A DNA stretch of 35,892 bases, taken from Armatimonadota bacterium. Its GTDB lineage: Bacteria > Sysuimicrobiota > Sysuimicrobiia > Sysuimicrobiales > Humicultoraceae. The stretch covers positions 1 to 35,892 of the forward strand of contig JAVKIA010000025.1 of assembly GCA_031459715.1 (NCBI GenBank), in the 5' to 3' direction. A program made the translations under genes and the position numbers. Below, piece after piece: positions 8,638-28,485 of this stretch. The first letter of the stretch is position 1. Each line of letters opens with the position of its first letter. The notes beneath the pieces are model-generated. The model had not been told where the DNA came from. It did not search any database and saw only the letters and a list, made by a program, of their open reading frames with translations.

Positions 8638-8677
8638 ATCGGGCAAAGACCCTATGCAAATCGTCACCTTGCCCGAT
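8638..8677 (+). promoter_or_regulatory. tandem ATCGGG-N6-CCCGAT-type palindromes before cupredoxin
   Basis: Two 18-bp palindrome copies, 8638-8655 (ATCGGG-N6-CCCTAT, one mismatch) and 8660-8677 (ATCGTC-N6-CCCGAT, two mismatches). Their centres are exactly 22 bp apart, about two helical turns. Possible -10 sequences (TAACAT or CATAAC) lie at 8700-8707. The cupredoxin ATG is 79 bases past the second copy. The same palindrome precedes four other transcription units in this window. The binding protein is unknown. Confidence 0.55.
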
Positions 8678-8756: not shown

Positions 8757-9203
8757 ATGCGCACACTGGTCTTGATCGTCGCCGCCACCCTGTTGTTGGC
8801 GGCATGCGGCGGCCGCACCGCCCAACAACCGCCGGCGGGGCCCACGCCTGCGGCGGGTCCCACGCCTGCGGCGGAGGCGCCCGCAGCCACCCCCGCCCCT
8901 ACCGGTGAGGCCCGGCCCGCATCTCCGGCGGGCGAGCAGGAAGTCAAGATCACCATGACCGAGTTCAAGTTTGAGCCGCAGACCGTGGAGGTGAAAGCGG
9001 GAAAGGTGGACTTCGAGCTGGTCAACGCCGGCACCGTCGAGCACTCCTTCGTCATCCTGGGCACCGACAAGCGCCTGGATTCGGTATCGCCGGGGCAGTC
9101 CGGGGAGCTGGAGGTGGAGCTGCGACCGGGCACCTATCAGGTTGAGTGCGACATCCCGGGGCACAAGGAGGCCGGAATGGTGATGACCATCGTGGTGAAG
9201 TGA
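8757..9203 (+). CDS. cupredoxin-domain lipoprotein (type 1 copper)
   Basis: Probable membrane-anchored blue-copper electron carrier or copper-binding protein, 148 residues. A lipoprotein signal ends in LLAAC with Cys17. Then comes a Pro/Ala/Thr linker with the repeat AGPTPA, and a plastocyanin-like domain from about residue 62. The copper ligands are complete: His96, Cys131, His136 and Met141, with the usual C-x4-H-x4-M spacing. A GGAGGG ribosome site precedes the ATG. It lies 1.8 kb from the nos operon and shares a palindromic upstream site with it, so it could donate electrons to NosZ. That role is inference. A small hairpin (9209-9228) without a U-run follows. Confidence 0.88.
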   Translation: MRTLVLIVAATLLLAACGGRTAQQPPAGPTPAAGPTPAAEAPAATPAPTGEARPASPAGEQEVKITMTEFKFEPQTVEVKAGKVDFELVNAGTVEHSFVILGTDKRLDSVSPGQSGELEVELRPGTYQVECDIPGHKEAGMVMTIVVK

Positions 9204-10475: not shown

Positions 10476-10493
10476 CTCGGGTCCTCACCCGAT
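10476..10493 (+). promoter_or_regulatory. ATCGGG-N6-CCCGAT-type palindrome before rrf2-nosZ
   Basis: CTCGGG-N6-CCCGAT, one mismatch from the window consensus, 103 bases before the rrf2 start. A weak -10-like sequence (GATTGT, 10514-10519) sits about 32 bases from its centre, so the site would occupy an activator position near -40. It is separate from the longer inverted repeat at 10549-10573. Confidence 0.5.
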
Positions 10494-10548
10494 GGAAATT
10501 CCTCTGCCCACCTGATTGTTGCGGGCGGGCCCTGGCCGTAGGCTTTTC

Positions 10549-10573
10549 ATGACAAAGTTCGCATCTTTGTCAT
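10549..10573 (+). promoter_or_regulatory. 25-bp inverted repeat, likely Rrf2 operator
   Basis: A perfect 9-bp inverted repeat, ATGACAAAG-N7-CTTTGTCAT, 23 bases before the rrf2 ATG. The right arm also overlaps a direct repeat (CATCTTTG at 10562-10569 and 10571-10578). Rrf2-family proteins bind palindromes of about this size and often control their own operon. The position downstream of the predicted start site suggests repression. Assignment to this Rrf2 protein is inference. Confidence 0.6.
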
Positions 10574-10596
10574 CTTTGCCCTGTTCTCCTAGACCG

Positions 10597-11073
10597 ATGC
10601 AGCTGACACGTCAGGCCCGGTATGCCGTGCGGACGGTCCTTGACCTCTCCCTGCGCCCCCAGGGCCGGCTGGGAGAGATCGCCGCCCGCCAGGGCATCCC
10701 GCGCAGCTACATGGCGCGGGTCGTCCAGGGCCTCAACCGCGCCGGGATTATCCGCACCAGGCGCGGGGTGGGCGGAGGCGTGCGGCTGGCCCGGCCGGCA
10801 ACCGGGATCACCCTGGGAGAGGTGATCGCTGCGGCCGAGGGCTCGCTGGCGGTCAACCTCTGCGTGCTCTGGAAGGACTGCATCTGTCCGCAACCGTGTC
10901 CGGTCCGCGCTGCCCTCGCCCGCCTGGAAGCCGCCATGAACCGGGAACTGGCGGTCACGGTGGCGGAACTGGCCGCCCGGCTTCCGTCGCCGGCCCGCCG
11001 CCGCGGAGGAGGCGGCGAGCGGGAACAGCCGCCGAGGCGACGTCCGACCATTGAAAGGAGGGAGAGGCAATGA
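10597..11073 (+). CDS. Rrf2-family regulator with Fe-S cysteines (NsrR/IscR-like)
   Basis: Winged-helix Rrf2 transcription regulator, 158 residues. The domain begins MQLTRQARYAVR and contains the wing GVGGGVRLARPA. The cluster-binding cysteines are Cys89, Cys95 and Cys101 (C-x5-C-x5-C, as in IscR and NsrR), with an extra Cys97. The protein is therefore likely a sensor of NO, oxygen or Fe-S status. The start at 10597 fits the conserved N-terminus. A basic, Pro/Arg-rich tail from about residue 130 is longer than usual. It overlaps nosZ by 4 bases (ATGA), so regulator and reductase are made from one message. The nearby 25-bp palindrome is its probable operator. Confidence 0.87.
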   Translation: MQLTRQARYAVRTVLDLSLRPQGRLGEIAARQGIPRSYMARVVQGLNRAGIIRTRRGVGGGVRLARPATGITLGEVIAAAEGSLAVNLCVLWKDCICPQPCPVRAALARLEAAMNRELAVTVAELAARLPSPARRRGGGGEREQPPRRRPTIERRERQ

Positions 11074-13052
11074 AGGTCCGTACGCAGGGGGTGACGGTCG
11101 TTCTGGCCCTCGCCCTCATCCTGGCCCTGGCCCTGATAGTCCGGCAGGGGACCAGTACCGGGCAGTCGCTGCCCCGCGACCTGCAGGAGCTGGTGCAGGC
11201 TCGCAAGCTTACACCGGACCAGGTGCGGGCGGCGTTGCAGACCTACGTCCCCCCGGGGCAGTATGACGAGTACCTGATGTTCTCTTCCGGGGGGCAGTCG
11301 GGGCAGGTCTTGGTCTACGGTCTGCCTTCCATGCGCCTGCTGCGGGTGATCGGCGTCTTCGCACCGGAACCGTGGCAGGGCTACGGGTTCAGCAAGGAGA
11401 CCCGCCAGGTGCTGGGGGAGGGGGAAACTCCGGAGGAGGCCCTCACCTGGGGTGACACCCACCACCCCGCCATCAGTGAGACCAACGGGGAGTACGACGG
11501 GCAGTTCCTCTTCATCAACGACAAGGCCAACGCCCGCATGGCTGTGGTCGACCTGCGGGACTTCGCCACGAAGCAGATTGTGAAGAATCCCAACGCCGCC
11601 AGCAACCACGGTGCGGTGGTCAGCCCCAACACGGAGTACGTGCTGGAGGCCACCCAGTACGCCGCCCCCTTCCCCTTCGGCTACCAGCCTGTGACCCAGG
11701 AATCCTACAATGCCCGCTTCCGCGGTCTGGCCACCTTCTGGAAATTTGACCGGGGCAGGGGGCGCATTGACCCGGCGGCGTCCTTCCAGATCGAGCTGCC
11801 TCCTTACTGGCAGGACCTGGCCGACTTCGGCAAGCTGGAGAGTGACGGCTGGGTCCTCATGAACTCCTTCAACACCGAGCGGGCCATCGGCGGCACCCTC
11901 CAGAAGCAACCGCCCATGGAGATCGGTGCCTCGGCGCGGGACATGGACTACCTGCACATCATCAACTGGAAGAAGGCTGCGCAGTTGGTCGCCCAGGGCA
12001 AGGGCAGGGTGGTCAACGGCATGCGCGTCCTCCCCCTGCAGGTGGCCATCGACCAGGGAGTCCTCTACTTCGCCCCCCAGCCCAAGAGCCCGCACGGCAA
12101 CGACGTGGCTCCCCGCGGCGACTACATCGTTACCGCCGGCAAGCTGGACCCCAACGTCACCGTTTACTCCTTCAAGAAGATCCAGGAGGCCATCAAGGCG
12201 CGGGCTTTCTCCGGGAAGGACCCCTACGGAGTCCCCATCCTGGCCTTCGACCGGGTGGTGGCGGCGCAGGTCAAGGTGGGCCTGGGGCCGCTGCACACCC
12301 AGTTCGACGACAAGGGCAACGCCTACACCAGCATCTTCCTGGACAGCGCCGTATCCAAGTGGACCCTGGGGCCGCCCTACAAGAACGCCGCGGAAGGCTG
12401 GAAGCTGGTGGACAAGATCTCCGTGCAGTACAACATCGGCCACCTGGCCGCAGTCATGGGCGACACCGTCAAGCCGGGCGGGAAGTACCTGGTGGCCCTG
12501 AACAAGTGGTCGGTGGACCAGTACAGGAACATCGGTCCCCTCTTCCCCCAGAACCTCCAGCTCATCGACATCAGCGGCGAGAAGATGAAGCTGCTGAGCA
12601 ACACTCCCGTGGGCCTGGCCGAGCCCCACCTGGCGCAGATCATCCCCATGGACCGGGTGAAGGCGTGGGCCACCTACCCGCAGCCGGGGACCAACCCGCT
12701 GACCATGCGGCCGGACCCGCAGGCCATCAAGGCGGGGCAGGCACGCATTGTCCGCCGCGGGAACACTGTAGAGGTGTGGATGACGGCTATGCGCAGCCAC
12801 TTCACACCTGACCGCATTCGGGTCAAGAAGGGCGACACCGTGATCCTGCACATCACCAACATCGAGCGGACGAAGGACGCCATCCACGGCTTCGCCATCG
12901 ACCGGTACAACATCAACCTATCCCTGGAGCCCGGCAAGTACGAGACGGTGACCTTCCGGGCGAATAAGGTGGGGACGTTTCCCTTCTACTGCACCGAGTT
13001 CTGCTCGGCCCTCCACCTGGAGATGGCCGGCTACCTGGAGGTGACGCCATAG
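11070..13052 (+). CDS. nosZ: nitrous-oxide reductase, clade II
   Basis: Periplasmic multicopper enzyme reducing N2O to N2, 660 residues. All seven CuZ histidines can be located: His131 and His132 (DTHHP), His180 (NHGA), His296 (YLHII), His342 (SPHGND), His409 (PLHTQFD) and His520 (EPHLAQ). The C-terminal CuA cupredoxin domain has His606, then CTEFCSALHLEM with Cys641, Cys645, His649 and Met652. The motif DTHHPAISETNGEYDG is of the clade II (atypical) kind. The leader is a plain hydrophobic Sec-like segment without a twin-arginine motif, also a clade II trait. A strong AAAGGAGGG ribosome site precedes the ATG, and the start overlaps the rrf2 stop. A large hairpin follows before the accessory genes. 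Confidence 0.97.
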   Translation: MKVRTQGVTVVLALALILALALIVRQGTSTGQSLPRDLQELVQARKLTPDQVRAALQTYVPPGQYDEYLMFSSGGQSGQVLVYGLPSMRLLRVIGVFAPEPWQGYGFSKETRQVLGEGETPEEALTWGDTHHPAISETNGEYDGQFLFINDKANARMAVVDLRDFATKQIVKNPNAASNHGAVVSPNTEYVLEATQYAAPFPFGYQPVTQESYNARFRGLATFWKFDRGRGRIDPAASFQIELPPYWQDLADFGKLESDGWVLMNSFNTERAIGGTLQKQPPMEIGASARDMDYLHIINWKKAAQLVAQGKGRVVNGMRVLPLQVAIDQGVLYFAPQPKSPHGNDVAPRGDYIVTAGKLDPNVTVYSFKKIQEAIKARAFSGKDPYGVPILAFDRVVAAQVKVGLGPLHTQFDDKGNAYTSIFLDSAVSKWTLGPPYKNAAEGWKLVDKISVQYNIGHLAAVMGDTVKPGGKYLVALNKWSVDQYRNIGPLFPQNLQLIDISGEKMKLLSNTPVGLAEPHLAQIIPMDRVKAWATYPQPGTNPLTMRPDPQAIKAGQARIVRRGNTVEVWMTAMRSHFTPDRIRVKKGDTVILHITNIERTKDAIHGFAIDRYNINLSLEPGKYETVTFRANKVGTFPFYCTEFCSALHLEMAGYLEVTP

Positions 13053-13140: not shown

Positions 13141-13755
13141 ATGGCCACCGGGACGTTGCAGGGACCGGTGAGGTTCGCCCATCCGGCCAGGATGCCGCGG
13201 CGAGGTCGACTGCCGCTGCTGGCGGCGGTTCTGCTGCTGCTGCTCTCCCTGGTCTTCCCCTACTGGCAGGTCACCCTTTATGCCCCCCAATACCCCGAGG
13301 GCCTGCGGGCCCGCGTCTACCTCACGCACGTCGGGGGCGACGCCCAGGAGATCACCACCCTCAACCACTACATCGGCATGCCGGGGCTGGATGTCGCCGC
13401 CCCCCTGGAGCGGCGGCTGGCGGTGCCGCTGGTCCTGCTCTCGGCTGCGGCGCTGCTGCTCTTGGCGGCCCGCCGTCTTCCAGCCAGACGATGGCTGCAG
13501 CTCCTGCTGCGTCTCCCGGTGGTACTCCTGCCCGCGGTTGTGCTGGCCGATCTGGCCTACTGGCTATGGTGGATGGGACACACCATTGACCCTACCGCAC
13601 CCATCACCATCGAACCGTTCATGCCCACCATCCTCGGCCGCGGCGGTGTGATGCAGTTCTCCACATCCGCCACCTTCGGTGTGGGCTTCTTCCTGGCCCT
13701 GGCGGCGTCGGTCCTTTCCCTCTACGACTTCGCCCGCGGGAGGGCGAGGGGCTGA
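13141..13755 (+). CDS. nosB: NosB-like membrane protein of clade II nos clusters
   Basis: Integral membrane protein, 204 residues, lying between nosZ and nosD, where clade II clusters commonly carry nosB. One N-terminal helix (about 25-42) is followed by an extracytoplasmic loop with PYWQVTLYAPQYPEGL and LNHYIGM. Three further helices follow (about 96-114, 125-145 and 181-199). The loop His and Met residues could bind metal or contact the periplasmic machinery. The function of NosB is not established. An AGGAGG site at 13127-13132 supports the ATG. The stop overlaps the nosD start (TGATG). The name rests on position and general form, not on an alignment. Confidence 0.65.
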   Translation: MATGTLQGPVRFAHPARMPRRGRLPLLAAVLLLLLSLVFPYWQVTLYAPQYPEGLRARVYLTHVGGDAQEITTLNHYIGMPGLDVAAPLERRLAVPLVLLSAAALLLLAARRLPARRWLQLLLRLPVVLLPAVVLADLAYWLWWMGHTIDPTAPITIEPFMPTILGRGGVMQFSTSATFGVGFFLALAASVLSLYDFARGRARG

Positions 13756-15167
13756 TGCCTGCCTCCCTCCTCCCATCCCCGCACGGGCCGATGCCGCGGG
13801 CCGCGCTGGCCGTCGCGGCGGGTCTGGCCCTGTCGGTGGGGGTGGCTGCTGCGGCCGGTCCGCCCGCCACCGCCGCGCCCTCCCTGCAGACCCGCATCGA
13901 CGCCGCTCCACCCGGGGCCACAGTGACGGTGCGGGGCGTGGAGCAGGGCCCCGTGGTCATCAGCAAGCCGCTGCGGCTGGTGGGGGAGCCCGGAGCCGTG
14001 ATCGACGGAGGCGGACGGGGGACAGTGGTGCGGGTCACGGCGCCGGGGGTGATCCTCAGCCGCCTTTCCCTGCGCCGCAGCGGCACAGACCTCAATGAGG
14101 AGGACGCCGGCGTGGCCCTCCATGCGCCCGACGCGCTCCTGGAAGACCTGACGCTGGAGGAGGTCCTCTTCGGCCTGAACCTGAAGCGGGCGGATCGCGC
14201 CGTGATCCGTCGGGTGACCATGCGGGGATACGACCTGCCGCCGGGCCGGCGGGGCGACGCGGTGCGGCTGTGGTACAGCCAGCGCGTGGTGCTCAGCGAC
14301 GTGCGCATCCGCCGCCTGCGGGACGTGCTCATCTGGTTCTCCCGCTCCTCGGTGCTGCACGCGCTGGACGTGGCTTCCTCACGCTACGGCGTCCACCTCA
14401 TGTACGCCGACGACCTGCGCCTGCTGGAAGGCACCTTCACCGACAACGCTGTGGGGGCCTACGTCATGTACAGCAGCGGAGTACGCATCGAGGGGAACCG
14501 CTTCCTGCGGCACCGCGGGAGTACCGGGGTGGGGCTGGCCTTCAAGGAGTCCGACGACGTGGTGGCGCGGGGCAACCTGCTGGCCGGAAACCACGTGGGG
14601 CTGTACCTGGACGGGACGCCCCTGCGGGAAGGTGGCCGCAGTGAGATCAGCGGTAACACCATAGCCGGCAACGAGACGGGGATCGTCCTGCTATCCAGCG
14701 CCAGCGGCAACGTGATTGTGGGCAACCGCTTCGACCATAACGCCCGCCAGGTGCGCCTGGAGGGTGGGGCGCAGGCAGTCAACCTCTGGGCCCGCGCCGG
14801 CCGGGGCAACTACTGGAGCGACCACGTCGCCCTGGACGCCGACGGAGACGGCGTGGCCGACCTTCCCTACCGGGCGCAGGAGTGGTTCGAGCGGCTGGAG
14901 GATCGGCTCCCTGCGGCTGCCCTCTTCTGGGGCAGCACCGCCGTGGCGGCGGTGGACTTCGCCAGCAGGCTGCTGCCCCTCTTCCCGCCCCACGTCCTGG
15001 TCGAGGACCCATCGCCGCTGATGGCCCTACCCGTCGTCCCGGAGCACCGAGGGGAACCCGCCTCCCCGCCATTTGCCGCCGCGTCTGCACTGCTGGCCCT
15101 TGGGGGAGGAGCAACGCTCTGGCGGACGGGGGCGCCCCGCCGCTTTAGAAGGGAGAAGCCCAGGTGA
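13755..15167 (+). CDS. nosD: NosD, periplasmic nos maturation protein
   Basis: Right-handed beta-helix protein needed to mature the CuZ centre of NosZ, 470 residues. A signal peptide (hydrophobic stretch about residues 15-36; the true start may be the second Met at residue 13) is followed by many short parallel-helix repeats such as VRIEGNRFLRHRG, NLLAGNHVGLYLDG and NTIAGNETGIVLL. The family-typical YWSDHVALDADGDGVADLPY ends the repeat region. A C-terminal hydrophobic segment (about residues 442-457) may anchor it to the membrane. It overlaps nosB by one base and nosF by four. NosD works with NosF and NosY as one membrane complex, which matches the gene order. Confidence 0.95.
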   Translation: MPASLLPSPHGPMPRAALAVAAGLALSVGVAAAAGPPATAAPSLQTRIDAAPPGATVTVRGVEQGPVVISKPLRLVGEPGAVIDGGGRGTVVRVTAPGVILSRLSLRRSGTDLNEEDAGVALHAPDALLEDLTLEEVLFGLNLKRADRAVIRRVTMRGYDLPPGRRGDAVRLWYSQRVVLSDVRIRRLRDVLIWFSRSSVLHALDVASSRYGVHLMYADDLRLLEGTFTDNAVGAYVMYSSGVRIEGNRFLRHRGSTGVGLAFKESDDVVARGNLLAGNHVGLYLDGTPLREGGRSEISGNTIAGNETGIVLLSSASGNVIVGNRFDHNARQVRLEGGAQAVNLWARAGRGNYWSDHVALDADGDGVADLPYRAQEWFERLEDRLPAAALFWGSTAVAAVDFASRLLPLFPPHVLVEDPSPLMALPVVPEHRGEPASPPFAAASALLALGGGATLWRTGAPRRFRREKPR

Positions 15168-16045
15168 TCCGCCTGGAGGGTATCACTGTCCGCTACGGCC
15201 GACGCACCATCCTCCGCGGCGTCGACCTGCAGATCCCGGCGGGGCAACGCGTGGCCGTCGTGGGGCCCAACGGGGCCGGCAAGACGACTTTGATCCGCAC
15301 CCTGCTGGCGCTCGCGCCCTTCTCCGGGACTGCCACCATCGGCGGGTTCGACACCAGGCGGGAGGGCTGGCGCGCCCGGGCCCTGGTGGGCTACGTCCCC
15401 CAGTCACCGTCCTTTCCCGGCGCGCTCACCGCCGCTGAGGTGATCTCGCTCTTCCAGGAGCTGCGCGGCCTGCCCGCGGCCCCGCTGACTCTGTTGCAGA
15501 CGGTCGGCCTGGAAGATGCCGCGGACAGTCCGGTACGCACCCTTTCCGGCGGTATGGTGCGCCGGCTGGCGCTGGCTGTGGCCTGTATCGGTAACCCGCC
15601 AGTGTGGCTGCTTGATGAGCCGACCAGCCAGCTGGACGCAGCAGGAGAACGACTGGTGCTGGAGTGGCTGGAAGCGGCCGGGCGGGAGGGTAAGACGATA
15701 CTGCTGGCCACGCACCACCTGGATGGGCTGGGCGCGGTCGTAGACCGCGTCGTCCTCCTGGAGGAGGGGCGGATCGCTGCTGCAGCGGAAGTCTCCGCGC
15801 TGTACGCCCGTCGCTGGGTGGAGGTGGTCACGGTGCCACCGATGCCGGCTGGTTTGCCGGCGGCGGTGCGGGTGCTGGCCACCAGCAACGGCCGCCTGCG
15901 CCTGCAGGTGCCGGACGCGGTCCTGGCGGAGGCGGTCCGCACCCTGGGAGGACGGCCGCTGCGGATCCACGAGCCGCGCCTGGAAGACATCCTTCGCCAG
16001 CCGGATCTGCTGCGGGAGGGCCTGCCGCGGGAGGGCCACACGTGA
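15164..16045 (+). CDS. nosF: NosF, ABC transporter ATP-binding protein
   Basis: ATPase of the NosDFY complex, 293 residues. Walker A is GPNGAGKTT at residues 34-42. The signature is LSGGMVRRL, Walker B is VWLLDEPTSQLD and the switch His is in LATHHLD. The C-terminal 90 residues form the extra domain usual in NosF. The GTG start overlaps the nosD stop (GTGA), with AGGGAGAA upstream as ribosome site. It acts at the cytoplasmic face, powering transfer of a sulfur species or conformational work needed for CuZ assembly. Confidence 0.94.
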   Translation: MIRLEGITVRYGRRTILRGVDLQIPAGQRVAVVGPNGAGKTTLIRTLLALAPFSGTATIGGFDTRREGWRARALVGYVPQSPSFPGALTAAEVISLFQELRGLPAAPLTLLQTVGLEDAADSPVRTLSGGMVRRLALAVACIGNPPVWLLDEPTSQLDAAGERLVLEWLEAAGREGKTILLATHHLDGLGAVVDRVVLLEEGRIAAAAEVSALYARRWVEVVTVPPMPAGLPAAVRVLATSNGRLRLQVPDAVLAEAVRTLGGRPLRIHEPRLEDILRQPDLLREGLPREGHT

Positions 16046-16869
16046 ACGCCGTCCGGGTCCTGGCCCGCTGGGACACCCGCGCCGTGCTGCGGGACCGCTG
16101 GTTCATTTCCGCTGCCGTCGCTTTCGGCGCGCTCACCCTCGCTGCCGCCGCACTGGCCCTGGCCAGCCCGTCCATCGCCGGTCTCTCCTCCTTCGACCGC
16201 ATCACCGCCACCCTGATCCACCTGACGATGCTGTTCGCACCGCTGCTCGGCCTGACCGCCGGCGCCGGATGGATCGCTGGCGAGCGCGAAAGCGGCGCCC
16301 TGATCATGCTCCTAAGCCAGCCGCTGCAGCGGGCGGAGCTGTTCGCCGGCAAGTACCTGGGGGTGGCCCGGGCGCTGCTGGCCGCCGTGCTGACGGGATT
16401 CGGCAGCGCCGGGGTGCTCCTGGCGGCCCGCGTGGGTTCGGACCAGCTGCCCGCCTTCCTCTGGCTGGTTGTGCTGGCGCTGCTGCTGGCTCTGGCATCG
16501 CTTTCCCTGGGGTTCCTCCTTTCGGCGGCAGCACCAAACCGCAGCCGAGCCCTGGGTGAGGCGCTGCTTGCCTGGCTCGTCCTGGTTATCGTCAGCGACC
16601 TGGGCATTTTGGGGACCGCCCTCATCCTGCGCCTGCCCGCACCGGTCGTCCTGGTCCTGGCCGCCCTCAACCCGGTGAGCGCCTTCCGCATGGCCGCCAT
16701 CCTGGGCGTCAGCGGCACCGCTGAGCTGCTGGGGCCTGTGGGACTCTACGCGGCAGAGCGCCTGGGCCCGGTGGGACTGCTGGCCGCACTGTGCGCGGTC
16801 CTGGTCTGCTGGGCCGTCGGTGCCTACTACGCCGCCCGGCTGCGGTTTGAGCAGGTGGTGGAGACGTGA
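16042..16869 (+). CDS. nosY: NosY, ABC transporter permease
   Basis: Membrane subunit of NosDFY, 275 residues with about six helices. The block TAGAGWIAGERESGALIMLLSQPL is typical of NosY-like ABC-2 permeases. The final helix (VGLLAALCAVLVCWAVGAYY) is followed by a short basic tail. The GTG start overlaps the nosF stop (GTGA), and its stop overlaps the next gene in the same way. The unbroken coupling nosB-D-F-Y-lipoprotein points to fixed stoichiometry. Confidence 0.93.
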   Translation: MNAVRVLARWDTRAVLRDRWFISAAVAFGALTLAAAALALASPSIAGLSSFDRITATLIHLTMLFAPLLGLTAGAGWIAGERESGALIMLLSQPLQRAELFAGKYLGVARALLAAVLTGFGSAGVLLAARVGSDQLPAFLWLVVLALLLALASLSLGFLLSAAAPNRSRALGEALLAWLVLVIVSDLGILGTALILRLPAPVVLVLAALNPVSAFRMAAILGVSGTAELLGPVGLYAAERLGPVGLLAALCAVLVCWAVGAYYAARLRFEQVVET

Positions 16870-17279
16870 CCGCCAAACGGCTCCGGCCGACCGTCCTGCC
16901 GATCCTGGTGGCGCTTCCGGCTGTGGCCCTTCTGTCTCTAGCCTGCGCGCCCAGGGCGCAGTCGACGGTCGGCGAGGCGGACTGGCAGGCGTACCTGAGC
17001 GCCACGCCACAGCGTCCCGCGGCGCTGCGGCCGGTGATCCTGCAGCTGCGGCTGACAGACCGCCAGGGCGCGCCCCTGGACGTCGCGGACCTGGAGGGCT
17101 ACGCCGGGATGCCGGAGATGGAGCATGGCGAGTCGAGGATCACCTTCCGTCGCACCGCCCCCGGCGTCTACGTCGCCGAGCACACCTTCTCCATGGACGG
17201 CCGGTGGGTCATCAGGCTGCAGGGACGGCGCAACGGCGCCCCCTTTGCCGGCCGCGTGGCCGTGGAGGTGGGCAGGTAA
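16866..17279 (+). CDS. FixH/YtkA-like copper-binding lipoprotein
   Basis: Small lipoprotein, 137 residues, with signal LLSLAC (lipid-bearing Cys27) and a beta-sandwich of the FixH/YtkA kind. Candidate metal ligands are in GMPEMEHG (two Met and a His) and FSMDGRW. It ends the nos operon, starting at a GTG that overlaps the nosY stop. NosL, the usual copper chaperone lipoprotein of nos operons, is not present in the window. This protein may fill that place by delivering copper to NosZ on the outer face of the membrane. The family is fairly clear; the chaperone role is inference. Confidence 0.72.
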   Translation: MTAKRLRPTVLPILVALPAVALLSLACAPRAQSTVGEADWQAYLSATPQRPAALRPVILQLRLTDRQGAPLDVADLEGYAGMPEMEHGESRITFRRTAPGVYVAEHTFSMDGRWVIRLQGRRNGAPFAGRVAVEVGR

Positions 17280-23781: not shown

Positions 23782-23895
23782 CACGCGTCCGCCCTCACCT
23801 TACCCTCTCACCTGCTTTGATGCTCCCGGCGCGCCGGGCGGTTGCGCCTGAAGGCACATTGGACGATCATATGGAGGAGGAGAACACGCTGGCAT

Positions 23896-25629
23896 ATGCT
23901 TTCTTTCGCCCTGCTGGGCCTGCTGTCCGTCGGTATCGGCATCGAGCTGGCGGTGACGGCGTTTCTCCTCCTGCGGTTTGTGGAAAGCCGCGAGGCCCAG
24001 GTGGGCTGGTGGGCGGCGGCCTTCGCCCTTTACACCGCTCACGTACTGCTGGAGGCGCTGGCCTTCATCTGGCCGGGCGTGATCATCCTGCGGCACCTCT
24101 TCTTCGTCCTGGCAGCAGCAGCCATCGCCCGCAGCCTGGGACCGCTCCCCCTGCCGCTCTCACCGCTGCTGGCGGTGGTGGCGATCGTCCTCTCCGCGCT
24201 GCTGCTGCCCTCCTTCCCTGGCTGGGCCGCCGTTCCGCCGTCGCTGCTGGGCGGCGCCTGGTTCGTCCTGGCGGCGGTGCGCTACCTCCGCGGGGTGGGC
24301 GGTCTGGAGGAGCGGTCTTCCCTGCTGGTGTTCGGCGGCCTCCTGCTCACCGGGGCCATCTCCCTGGCCTATCCGCTTCTGCGGCCGCAGCCCATCTGGG
24401 TCGGCGTGGGCGCGGGGCTCTCCGGACTCTTCACCATCGCCTTTGCTTTAGGGGTGCTGCTGCGGAGCTGGGCCCGCGCCCGCGACCTGGCCACGGTCAA
24501 CGCCGTGGCCGAGACCCTGAATCGCTCCACTAACATCCAGGAGGCGCTGCAGACATCGCTGCAGCGGATCGTGGAGCTGATGAACCTGCGCAGCGGGTGG
24601 GTGTTCATCCAGGAGGACGGCGGCTATACCCTGGCCGCTCACCGTGCCCTCCCGGAGCCGCTGGCCGCCAATGACGCCGCGGCCATGGCCGGTGACTGCC
24701 GCTGCCTGCAGCTATTGCGCGAAGGGCGGTTGCGCCAGGCCGTGAACACCGTCCCCTGCCTGCGGCTGGAGAACGCCGGTTGGCCACAGGTGCGGCACGC
24801 CAGTGTGCCTCTGTATACCGCGGGCCGTGCGGTGGGCGTGATGAACCTCCTGCTGCCGGAGGGCCGCAACCTGGTGGGCCGGGAACTGGACATGCTGGCC
24901 GCGGTGGGACACCAGATCGCGCTGGCCGTGGAACGCAACCGCCTCTTCGAGGAGGTGCGGGCCAAGGAAGCTGCGCGGGGAGAGCTGATCGAGAAGCTGC
25001 TCACCGCGCAGGAGGACGAACGGCGGCGCATCGCCCGCGAACTGCACGATGAGGCGGGACAGGCGCTGACCGCCCTCATCCTCAACCTGGAGATGGCCGA
25101 GCGGGCGGCTCCGCCGGAGGAGGCCACACGCCTGGAGCGGCTGCGTGCTATCGCCGAGCACACCCTGGGTGAGCTGCGTACCCTGATCTACGAGCTGCGT
25201 CCCACCATCCTGGACGACCTGGGGCTGGGGGCGGCCATCCGCTGGCTGGTCAAGGAAGTAGTAGAGCCCACCGGCATTAAAGTGGACCTGCAGCTCCAGG
25301 GGCTGGAGCGGCGTCTGCCGCATGCGGTGGAGACCGCCGTCTTCCGCATTGCCCAGGAGGCGTTCAATAATATGCTCAAGCACGCGCAGGCCTCCCGGGT
25401 CCGCGTGGCCGTGGGGGTCGACCACCGGGAGGTCAGCATCACGGTGGAGGACAACGGCCGGGGCTTCAACCCGGCGACGGTGCCGCCCAGCCGGACGGGC
25501 CGGGGACTGGGGCTGCTGGGCATGCGCGAACGGGCGGAGCTGCTGGGCGGCAGGCTGGTGGTGGAAAGCACGGTGGGACAGGGCACCCGGGTGCACGGCG
25601 TCTTGCCGCTGCGCGACGGCGGAGGTTAG
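23896..25629 (+). CDS. sensor histidine kinase, multi-helix N-terminus, GAF, HisKA_3
   Basis: Membrane sensor kinase of the NarX/DegS/DosS type, 577 residues from ATG 23896. GGAGGAGGAG lies 13 bases upstream; a TTG 54 bases earlier is an alternative. Six to seven N-terminal helices fill residues 1-195. A GAF domain (about 205-365) carries Cys268, Cys270 and Cys288, a possible metal or redox site. The phosphorylated His384 is in RRRIARELHDEAGQ. The ATPase has RIAQEAFNNMLKHAQ, VEDNGRGFNP and GRGLGLLGMRERAELLGG. The next gene, eight bases downstream, is its response regulator. The signal is unknown; position next to N2O-respiration genes makes a redox or nitrogen-oxide cue plausible. Confidence 0.9.
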   Translation: MLSFALLGLLSVGIGIELAVTAFLLLRFVESREAQVGWWAAAFALYTAHVLLEALAFIWPGVIILRHLFFVLAAAAIARSLGPLPLPLSPLLAVVAIVLSALLLPSFPGWAAVPPSLLGGAWFVLAAVRYLRGVGGLEERSSLLVFGGLLLTGAISLAYPLLRPQPIWVGVGAGLSGLFTIAFALGVLLRSWARARDLATVNAVAETLNRSTNIQEALQTSLQRIVELMNLRSGWVFIQEDGGYTLAAHRALPEPLAANDAAAMAGDCRCLQLLREGRLRQAVNTVPCLRLENAGWPQVRHASVPLYTAGRAVGVMNLLLPEGRNLVGRELDMLAAVGHQIALAVERNRLFEEVRAKEAARGELIEKLLTAQEDERRRIARELHDEAGQALTALILNLEMAERAAPPEEATRLERLRAIAEHTLGELRTLIYELRPTILDDLGLGAAIRWLVKEVVEPTGIKVDLQLQGLERRLPHAVETAVFRIAQEAFNNMLKHAQASRVRVAVGVDHREVSITVEDNGRGFNPATVPPSRTGRGLGLLGMRERAELLGGRLVVESTVGQGTRVHGVLPLRDGGG

Positions 25630-25637
25630 GAGGGCAC

Positions 25638-26291
25638 GTGGCCAAGATCAGGGTCGTCATTGCCGATGACCACGCGGTAGTCCGGGAGGGGGTCAAGATG
25701 ATCCTCAGCCGGGAGCCGGACATCGAGATCGTGGGCGAGGCCGGCAACGGCCGCGAAGCCCTGGACCTGGTGGCCAAGACCAGGCCGCACGTGGTGGTGA
25801 TGGACATCTCCATGCCGGAGATGGGGGGCGTGGAGGCTACCCGCCGCGTCAAGGAAGCCTACCCCAAGGTAAACGTGCTGGCGCTGACCATGCACGAGGA
25901 CGAGAGCTACGTCTTCCAGTTGCTCAAGGCCGGTGCCTCAGGGTATGTACTCAAACGGGGAGCGGCACAGGACCTGGTGCAGGCCATCCGCTCCGCCGCC
26001 CGCGGCGAGGCGTTCCTCTATCCCTCGGTGGCGCGCAGTGTCCTGGCCGACTACCTGAAGCGCGTAGAGGCCGGCGAGGAGCGGCACCGCTTCGACGGGC
26101 TGACGGAGCGCGAGCGGGAGATCCTGGCCCTGATTGCCGAGGGCCTGTCCAACCAGGAGATTGCCCAGAAGCTGTTCATCAGCATCAAGACCGTGCAGAC
26201 TCACCGTACGCACATCATGGAGAAGCTGGACCTGCACAACCGAGCTCAGCTGGTCCGCTACGCCATCCGCAAGGGCCTGATCGAGCCCTAG
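25638..26291 (+). CDS. LuxR/NarL-family response regulator
   Basis: DNA-binding response regulator, 217 residues, partner of the kinase just upstream. The receiver has the acidic pair Asp10-Asp11, phosphorylated Asp56 (VVMDISMPEMGG) and the switch Lys in YVLKRGA. The C-terminal HTH reads LTEREREILALIAEGLSN, with recognition helix SIKTVQTHRTHIMEKL. The GTG start has a perfect AGGAGGG site. It is the only DNA-binding response regulator in the window. It is a candidate for binding the ATCGGG-N6-CCCGAT palindromes, which recall the DosR box in having GGG and CCC arms, though the spacing differs. Confidence 0.94.
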   Translation: MAKIRVVIADDHAVVREGVKMILSREPDIEIVGEAGNGREALDLVAKTRPHVVVMDISMPEMGGVEATRRVKEAYPKVNVLALTMHEDESYVFQLLKAGASGYVLKRGAAQDLVQAIRSAARGEAFLYPSVARSVLADYLKRVEAGEERHRFDGLTEREREILALIAEGLSNQEIAQKLFISIKTVQTHRTHIMEKLDLHNRAQLVRYAIRKGLIEP

Positions 26292-26312: not shown

Positions 26313-26342
26313 TTTTCCGGGAAAATCGGTCAGCCGCCCGAT
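26313..26342 (+). promoter_or_regulatory. regulatory site before lone receiver gene
   Basis: ATCGGT-N6-CCCGAT (26325-26342, one mismatch) is preceded by the 13-bp palindrome TTTTCC-G-GGAAAA (26313-26325). The block GGGAAAATCGG-N7-CCCGAT is identical in sequence and orientation to the one before the CBS operon. A poor -10-like TAGGCT lies at 26364-26369, which would leave a very short leader before the gene. Confidence 0.5.
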
Positions 26343-27184: not shown

Positions 27185-27607
27185 TCAGCGGACGATGAGC
27201 ACGGGGCAGGGGGCTTCCTGCACCACCCGCTGGCTCACCGAGCCCAGCAGTGCCACCTCCAGGCGTCCCAGCCCCCGCGACCCCATCACAATCAGGTCAC
27301 AGCCCCTGGTACGGGCCACCCGCAGAATAGCCTCCGCAGCCGGCCCCTCCAGGACCTCCTCCTCGAAGGGCACTCTCTCCCGCTCCAGAATCGCCGTCGC
27401 TTCACGGGCCACGGCCTCTCCCTCCGCCGGGCGCCGCGCCATCAGCTCCTCCAGGAAGGGGCTGCCCAGGTCCCGGGGGATGGGCTCGTAGGCGGTGACG
27501 ACAATGACCCGCGCCTGCCGCCGCCGCGCTATGTCCACGACCCAGTCCAGGGCCTTACGCGCGTGCAAAGAACCGTCGGTGGCATAGAGGATGGTGGATA
27601 CCTTCAC
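27185..27607 (-). CDS. universal stress protein (UspA family)
   Basis: Universal stress protein, 140 residues, single Usp domain. The N-terminal ILYATDGSLHARKALDW and the nucleotide-binding motif VMGSRGLGRLEVALLGSVSQRV (G-2x-G-9x-G-S type) are both intact, so it probably binds ATP. The gene overlaps the CBS-domain gene by four bases, so the two are translationally coupled. USP and CBS proteins are typical of oxygen-limitation regulons such as DosR, which fits the shared palindrome upstream of this operon. Confidence 0.94.
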   Translation of the reverse strand: MKVSTILYATDGSLHARKALDWVVDIARRRQARVIVVTAYEPIPRDLGSPFLEELMARRPAEGEAVAREATAILERERVPFEEEVLEGPAAEAILRVARTRGCDLIVMGSRGLGRLEVALLGSVSQRVVQEAPCPVLIVR

Positions 27608-28353
27608 ATGGACCGCTCCGGGGGAAGCTTCCCCCCTCCCGGCTTAGCGGCCGGGGCGCTTTCTCCCGCATCCCTTTCAGCGGTGGGCGAGGACGCGGCC
27701 GGGGGTTCGCCCGCCTGGGGCAGGGGAGCCAGGTGGGTGACCTTCACCCCCTGGTCGGCCAGGGCCTGCACCACGTGCAGCGGGTAGGAGGTTTCCAGGC
27801 GGATCACCGCCTGCCCCACATTGTCCACCACGTAGGCGGCCAGGCTGCTGATGTTCACCTGGCAGTCGCGGATGACCCGCACGACCTCCTCCAGGGCGCC
27901 GATCCGGTTCTCGATCTCCACCGTCAGGCGCGTCCCGCCCCGGCTTAGGCCCATCAGGTCGATGAAGGCGTCGAAGATGTCGCTCTCGGTGATGATGCCC
28001 ACCACGCCGCCGTCCTCGACCACGGGGAGACCGCCGATCTTGTTGCGGCGCATCAGCACTGCCACTTCCTCGATGGTCGCCCCCGGCGAGGTGGTGATCA
28101 CATTCTTGGTCATCACCTCGGCGACCGGCGCCTTCATCAAGAGGTAGGAGATCTCCCACACGGAGAGGCTCGTGGCCGGGGAAGGGGAGGCACGCATCAG
28201 GTCGGTCCAGGTCACGATGCCGACCAGGCGCTGGCCCTTCAGCACGGGGAGACGACGGATGCGGCGCTCCTTCATCAGAGCCAGGGCATCGTGGATGGAG
28301 GTCTTGGGGCCAACGGTGATCACCGGCGTGGTCATGCGGTCGCGTACCAGCAT
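27604..28353 (-). CDS. CBS-domain pair plus ACT-like domain protein
   Basis: Regulatory protein of 249 residues. Two CBS domains (about 1-60, beginning MLVRDRMTTPVITVGP, and 78-135, beginning VAEVMTKNVITTSPG) form an adenosyl-ligand-binding module. An ACT-like domain follows (RLTVEIENRIGALEEVVRVI), then a Pro/Ala-rich tail. This architecture matches AcuB-type proteins. The ATG at 28353 has AAGGAGGG seven bases upstream; an in-frame ATG at 28461 would lie beyond the promoter and is rejected. It heads the CBS-USP-GerW operon. The likely ligand is AMP/ATP or a related nucleotide. Confidence 0.88.
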   Translation of the reverse strand: MLVRDRMTTPVITVGPKTSIHDALALMKERRIRRLPVLKGQRLVGIVTWTDLMRASPSPATSLSVWEISYLLMKAPVAEVMTKNVITTSPGATIEEVAVLMRRNKIGGLPVVEDGGVVGIITESDIFDAFIDLMGLSRGGTRLTVEIENRIGALEEVVRVIRDCQVNISSLAAYVVDNVGQAVIRLETSYPLHVVQALADQGVKVTHLAPLPQAGEPPAASSPTAERDAGESAPAAKPGGGKLPPERSM

Positions 28354-28384
28354 GAGAGACCCTCCTTCGCTGTCCACCTCAACC

Positions 28385-28426
28385 ATAGTAGCCCCCGCAG
28401 GCGGAGGGATCGGGTAAAAGCCCGAT
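28385..28426 (-). promoter_or_regulatory. promoter and perfect palindrome of CBS-USP-GerW operon
   Basis: The perfect ATCGGG-N6-CCCGAT (28409-28426) is centred 30 bases from a minus-strand -10, TACTAT (28385-28390). It would therefore sit at about -40, replacing a -35 box, as activator sites do. GGGAAAA flanks its upstream side, as before the lone receiver gene. The CBS start codon is 55 bases downstream. Confidence 0.6.
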
Positions 28427-28485
28427 TTTCCCTCAGGTGCTGTCACGCCCACAGTCGCCACCGTCCCTGCAGGCTGCTATGCCAT

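Follow-up and report, generated by a model that had tools for sequence, protein, structure and literature searches.

How is N2O reduction switched on in a bacterium whose nosZ gene follows, within the same operon, a gene for an Rrf2 regulator? Clade II nosZ is an important biological sink for this greenhouse gas, and little is known of how it is turned on. We analysed a 35,892-bp contig (C25; hereafter the window) from the 97%-complete genome of an uncultured Armatimonadota bacterium (Sysuimicrobiota in GTDB; G000; GCA_031459715.1) and compared it with relatives from 43 genomes of the order. The original prediction, made from the window alone, was that the nos operon is under dual control, by an activator-type palindrome and by a separate Rrf2 operator. 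The full explanation that we propose, and to which we give a probability of roughly two in three, keeps this outline: a single nos promoter would be subject to two independent controls, one through a response-regulator box and the other through the operator of an Rrf2 protein carrying a four-cysteine Fe-S site.

The genes concerned form a clade II nos operon on the forward strand. nosZ (11070..13052) encodes a Sec-dependent clade II N2O reductase (TIGR04246, 845 bits for a cut-off of 625) and is followed by a membrane protein gene without family match (13141..13755), nosD (13755..15167; TIGR04247, 344 bits for a cut-off of 300), genes for a nosF-like ABC ATPase (15164..16045; ABC_tran match) and a nosY-like ABC permease (16042..16869; ABC2_membrane_2 match), both named from their context, and the last of the nos genes, coding for a YtkA/FixH-like secreted protein found by family search (16866..17279). 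The four-cysteine Rrf2 regulator of 158 aa is encoded just upstream (10597..11073), from the ATG at 10597 to a TGA ending at 11073, and the ATG of nosZ at 11070 joins the two genes by the ATGA overlap that had been predicted. The TTG at 10516, given as the rrf2 start in the ORF list, was rejected, the alignment setting the start at 10597. The window NosZ is 81-83% identical to the NosZ of another family of the order (f2) but only 60-61% identical to the proteins of its own family (in G005 and G007). This points to horizontal exchange and fits the mostly horizontal acquisition of nosZ reported for several families of the Sysuimicrobiota, formerly CSP1-3 (PMC11604079).

Ahead of rrf2, the predicted perfect 9-7-9 inverted repeat is present at 10549..10573 (forward strand), where it reads ATGACAAAG-TTCGCAT-CTTTGTCAT. 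Markov resampling of the 157-bp region gives a perfect repeat with arms of at least 9 and a gap of 0-12 in 0.7% of cases; in the window genome the repeat is found once in perfect form and once with 3 mismatches, and shuffles of the window contain no match within 3 mismatches. Conservation is better evidence than resampling that the repeat is not a chance occurrence. Its core, GACAAA-N9-TTTGTC, is found exactly, and at the same place just ahead of rrf2, in the nos regions of three genomes (G011, G020, G032) that belong to another family than the window genome. Among the 43 genomes there are six exact cores, four at nos loci (these three and the window) and two elsewhere; the latter lie inside long ORFs (801 aa in G003, 405 aa in G039) and are therefore taken as chance and set aside. 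Absence of the repeat from relatives with the same rrf2-nosZ arrangement would have spoken against the prediction; this is mostly not the case, since the core is exact in three of five such relatives. In the other two (G005 and G007, with orthologous rrf2), the sequence has diverged at this place, no significant dyad is present, and a search there for a convincing operator found none. A terminator or attenuator hairpin is unlikely, as the dyad has no T-run after it, sits at the start site (see below), and differs in sequence and length across lineages. From its position and its linkage to rrf2, we infer that this palindrome very probably serves as the operator through which the Rrf2 protein, encoded in the same transcript, would repress its own operon.

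The second predicted element, a palindrome shared across the window and lying about 55 bases further upstream, is found at 10476..10493 (forward strand), 55 bases from the repeat. It reads CTCGGGT-CCTC-ACCCGAT, with three mismatches to ATCGGGC-N4-GCCCGAT, a pattern enriched in the window (10 matches for 4.8 expected, a number reached in 2 of 100 shuffles). This distal box, at about -65, is conserved upstream of nos in relatives and is a putative NarL-type response-regulator site. A proximal box slot at 10499..10516 (forward strand, about -43) lies 23 bp downstream of it (22 in f2) and is half degenerate in the window (7/14 positions); its right half, ACCTGAT at 10510-10516, precedes by 22 nt a -10-like hexamer, TAGGCT (10539..10544, forward strand), identified by promoter footprinting. 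For this footprinting, 12 nos loci of the order were scored for a box like ATCGGGC-N4-GCCCGAT followed, after a gap of 10 to 35, by TANNNT. In 10 of the 12 promoters the box, exactly 22 nt, and the TANNNT of the -10 are present; the summed score is 107 at a gap of 22, at most 55 at every other gap from 10 to 35, and at most 48 in 300 shuffles. The arrangement seen here, in which the box overlies the -35 region and its spacing to the -10 is constant, is what characterizes NarL/DosR-type promoters.

The position of the -10 also locates the repeat. With TAGGCT at 10539-10544, the start site is expected at ~10550-10552, so that the repeat spans roughly -2 to +23. The same holds in the relatives: in eight of the 10 nos promoters with the fixed layout, a dyad covers the predicted start, beginning 4-7 nt past the -10. 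Taken one at a time, the f4 dyads are weak (shuffle P of 0.001-0.39), yet they occur at the same place. In families f3 and f4 the dyad has a different sequence, of the GGAnCC type, and is paired with a different Rrf2 lineage. Rrf2 lineage and operator sequence thus appear to change together while the position is kept, and two distinct Rrf2 lineages would serve nosZ in this order through different putative operators placed identically. Dual control by an activator-type box and a separate Rrf2 operator is in this way strongly supported by position, through the fixed 22-nt spacing and the dyad over the predicted start.

In the mechanism that we propose, a response regulator bound at about -43 and -65 would recruit RNA polymerase to the nos promoter. 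Its target would be the 18-bp palindromic box lying ~43 bp and, where doubled, ~65 bp before the start, the right half being 22 nt ahead of TANNNT. Rrf2 bound at the start site would block the polymerase and so control its own operon, and loss, reduction or nitrosylation of its cluster would lift the repression. With an activator at the box and a repressor at the start site, the operon would need both the signal of the kinase and regulator and the release of Rrf2. We give about even odds to a more general form of this reading, that it is a lineage-specific plan in which a NarL-type box lies 22 nt before the -10 and an exchangeable Rrf2 operator lies at the start, with distinct Rrf2 lineages slotted in, one clade of which has an all-cysteine, single-subunit Fe-S site (Asp/Glu8 and His104 traded for Cys97).

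Which protein binds the box? We examined the stretches around boxes throughout the window genome. The box recurs genome-wide, and most of the promoter-like copies, including all four perfect ones, have a TANNNT after 21-23 nt; its neighbours are a hydrogenase cluster and genes for an acyl-CoA synthetase, a malic enzyme, a multihaem cytochrome and a sensor kinase (names read from translations). CRP/FNR was set aside as the activator, the 97%-complete genome having no full-length member: it encodes two cNMP-domain proteins, and the larger HTH_Crp_2 matches are partial and located elsewhere. NarL-type (GerE) genes above the cut-off number ten. Of these, four have boxes in their vicinity: one gene on C25, another on C21 and two on C2. 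The one in the window encodes a NarL-type response regulator (25638..26291, forward strand) and follows the gene of a GAF-HisKA_3 sensor kinase, its candidate partner, found by family searches (23842..25629, forward strand). Directly behind the regulator gene, the box search found a box (26325..26342, forward strand) followed, after 22 nt, by TAGGCT, and Usp and CBS-domain genes also follow the kinase/regulator pair (23842-26291). Taken together, the lack of a full-length CRP/FNR and the NarL-type genes near boxes make a NarL/DosR-like regulator the likeliest activator, and it is reasonably probable that such a response regulator binds the upstream box, the best candidate being the one encoded at 25638-26291, acting together with its GAF kinase, or else a paralogue.

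That a regulator of another family binds the palindrome is a sizeable, if lesser, possibility, since what favours a NarL-type protein is the proximity of boxes to response-regulator genes together with the absent CRP/FNR. Against this alternative stand the four NarL-type genes near boxes and the close packing of the boxes, of which the proximal one covers the -35, which is the pattern published for promoters of DevR, a NarL-family regulator (PMC3029386).

Two further boxes of the window were noted. One is on the reverse strand, at 28409-28426, and is followed by TATGGT after 21 nt. It overlaps the 5' end called for the CBS-domain gene 27604-28461, whose true start probably lies further in. The cupredoxin gene 8757-9203 has a tandem box of its own upstream (8638..8677, forward strand; box search), the two copies starting at 8638 and 8660, 22 bp apart. 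In the nos operons of f2, rrf2 and nosZ flank a gene whose product resembles this cupredoxin; the 8757-9203 product may therefore be the electron donor of NosZ.

The second control depends on the nature of the Rrf2 protein. It belongs to the Rrf2 superfamily (PF02082, 101.9 bits for a cut-off of 30; TIGR00738, 102.9 for 73.3) and falls short of the equivalog cut-offs for NsrR (NF008240, 53.7 of 182 bits), IscR (TIGR02010, 65.4 of 207.55 bits) and RirA (NF008886, 63.9 of 193 bits). The predicted fold (mean pLDDT 85) is closest in the PDB to RsrR, then CymR, IscR and NsrR, a ranking that cannot separate Rrf2 subfamilies; the best PDB sequence match is the N-terminal domain of IscR, and the cysteine loop has low model confidence, as is to be expected of a model built without the cluster. 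The seven nos-linked proteins of this order (L003-L009), the window protein among them, form one side of a branch with support 95/83 in a 45-sequence tree. Their nearest relatives are three-cysteine proteins whose genes neighbour that of a nirK-like multicopper oxidase, that of a ba3-type oxidase, or a cox operon. At L001 (G000:C17) and L011 (G014:C11), sister Rrf2 genes immediately precede genes of haem-copper oxidases (cox, ba3-type), suggesting a set of respiration-linked Rrf2 regulators in the order. At L010 (G001:C75), in a genome of the same genus, a three-cysteine rrf2 and a multicopper oxidase gene are found around REC, Usp and CBS genes, and this rrf2 has a GTGGAC-N7-GTCCAC dyad upstream.

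The cysteines of the window protein, Cys89, Cys95, Cys97 and Cys101, have the predicted C-x5-C-x5-C spacing, that of IscR, with the extra Cys97 between. The published fourth cluster ligand is His107 in IscR (PMC10510648) and Asp8 in NsrR (PMC5411485). Both positions are altered here: the seven clade members have His, Gln or Arg at position 8 (Arg8 in the window), and all seven have Arg104 and Cys97, while the three canonical cluster cysteines are invariant in 7/7. By comparison, Asp/Glu8 or His104 is kept in 52 of the 52 other Rrf2 proteins compared, none of which has Cys97. No further four-cysteine Rrf2 was found among the best matches inspected from 386 genomes. The four-cysteine state thus arose once, and the covariation is a single event, suggestive rather than replicated, of a ligand swap in which Cys97 would replace the usual fourth ligand (Asp/Glu8 or His104). 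We consider it probable that Cys89, Cys95, Cys97 and Cys101 of a single subunit together bind an Fe-S cluster. Of the original description as an Rrf2 protein with NsrR/IscR-type Fe-S cysteines, the family and the Fe-S-type cysteine set stand; the grouping with NsrR and IscR does not, the scores being far under the cut-offs and the equivalents of Asp8 and His107 missing.

What such a cluster would sense bears on how the operon is released. From the genome and the literature, O2 or redox state and NO each appear possible as the signal, neither firmly, and iron or Fe-S status unlikely. The window genome has no match above the cut-off of the curated NirK model (83 of 296 bits) and no convincing NirS, with weak partial cytochrome d1 matches only, so it probably belongs to an N2O reducer without a nitrite reductase of its own; O2 or redox is then no less plausible than NO as the signal. 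The protein might act like RsrR, its oxidised cluster form being the DNA-binding repressor, so that reduction of the cell releases nos and NO plays no role. The RsrR structures are the best fold matches, internal NO is doubtful without NirK or NirS, and NosZ works in anoxia. The RsrR ligands Glu8 and His33 are however Arg8 and Gly33 here, the fold ranking does not distinguish the subfamilies, and the nitrite-reductase search covers NirK and NirS whereas NO may have other sources, including outside the cell. We regard this reading as conceivable but rather doubtful.

The same tentative standing is given to the signal of the original prediction, in which NO destroys an NsrR-like cluster and derepresses nosZ. 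There is a direct precedent in Magnetospirillum, whose NsrR represses nosZ directly and loses DNA affinity with NO (PMC11014258). In RirA, moreover, an added fourth ligand stabilises the cluster at a cost to iron sensing (PMC10510648), so that the fourth cysteine found here is a mild argument against iron sensing, which favours NO. Set against this are the NsrR score of 53.7 bits for a cut-off of 182, the loss of Asp8 in 7/7 and the lack of nitrite reductases of the NirK or NirS model kinds in the genome. The original interpretation is thus broadly correct, but overly specific as to NO and overly hasty in its grouping with NsrR and IscR. That the protein has no Fe-S cluster, its cysteines serving as a thiol switch or as a site for another metal such as copper or zinc, is unlikely: CymR provides a precedent for cluster-free Rrf2 regulators (PMC5411485), copper is the metal of NosZ and C-x-C-x3-C is a motif that could hold other metals, but the three canonical cysteines are invariant in 7/7 and the extra one occurs exactly where both classical fourth ligands are missing.

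With a probable four-cysteine Fe-S repressor at the start site and a putative response regulator at the box, the nos locus yields a concrete, testable prediction on signal and mechanism. As the fourth ligand helps to set what Rrf2 proteins sense, a natural swap at this position also offers a handle on how iron, redox and NO sensing are tuned.

The rrf2-nosZ arrangement is already known, clade II nos clusters being enriched in Rrf2 regulators (PMC6264515); the literature searched describes no four-cysteine variant, operator or promoter plan of this kind, and no experimental study of an Rrf2 regulator at clade II nosZ. A survey for a leading rrf2 with this palindrome had been proposed. When named genomes were scanned with just the Rrf2 protein, nothing was found, and the survey rested instead on a NosZ alignment: among the best 80 named clade II nosZ loci, a sample and not a census, an Rrf2 gene is directly upstream in 10, one gene away in 4 and on the other strand in 3. 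These nosZ-linked Rrf2 proteins come from several phyla and nearly all have His104. In four Planctomycetota loci (L139, L162, L176 and L189), the Rrf2 encoded one gene upstream of nosZ has no middle cysteine and reads C-x6-H-x3-C-x2-H, another ligand variant with histidine in that stretch.

Compared with known regulators, the window protein shares the Rrf2 fold and the three cluster cysteines with NsrR of Streptomyces, E. coli and Magnetospirillum; the small regulon of NsrR in S. coelicolor is a further likeness, and control of nosZ is known in Magnetospirillum (PMC11014258). It differs from NsrR in lacking Asp8, in having Cys97, in being encoded inside the nos operon and in scoring under the NsrR cut-off. 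With E. coli IscR it shares an identical C-x5-C-x5-C spacing, whereas Arg104 occupies the equivalent of His107 and the gene is not linked to isc or suf. RsrR, the redox-sensitive [2Fe-2S] Rrf2 regulator of Streptomyces venezuelae, is the closest in PDB fold, but its ligand residues are replaced here, as given above. The promoter resembles those of the DevR/DosR type in its close-packed boxes, the proximal one over the -35, in the NarL-family regulator and in the Usp and CBS genes nearby; the Dev box itself presumably has a different sequence. Finally, in other phyla too, Rrf2 genes neighbouring clade II nosZ lie just upstream of it; they belong to other lineages, in which His104 is kept and Cys97 is absent.
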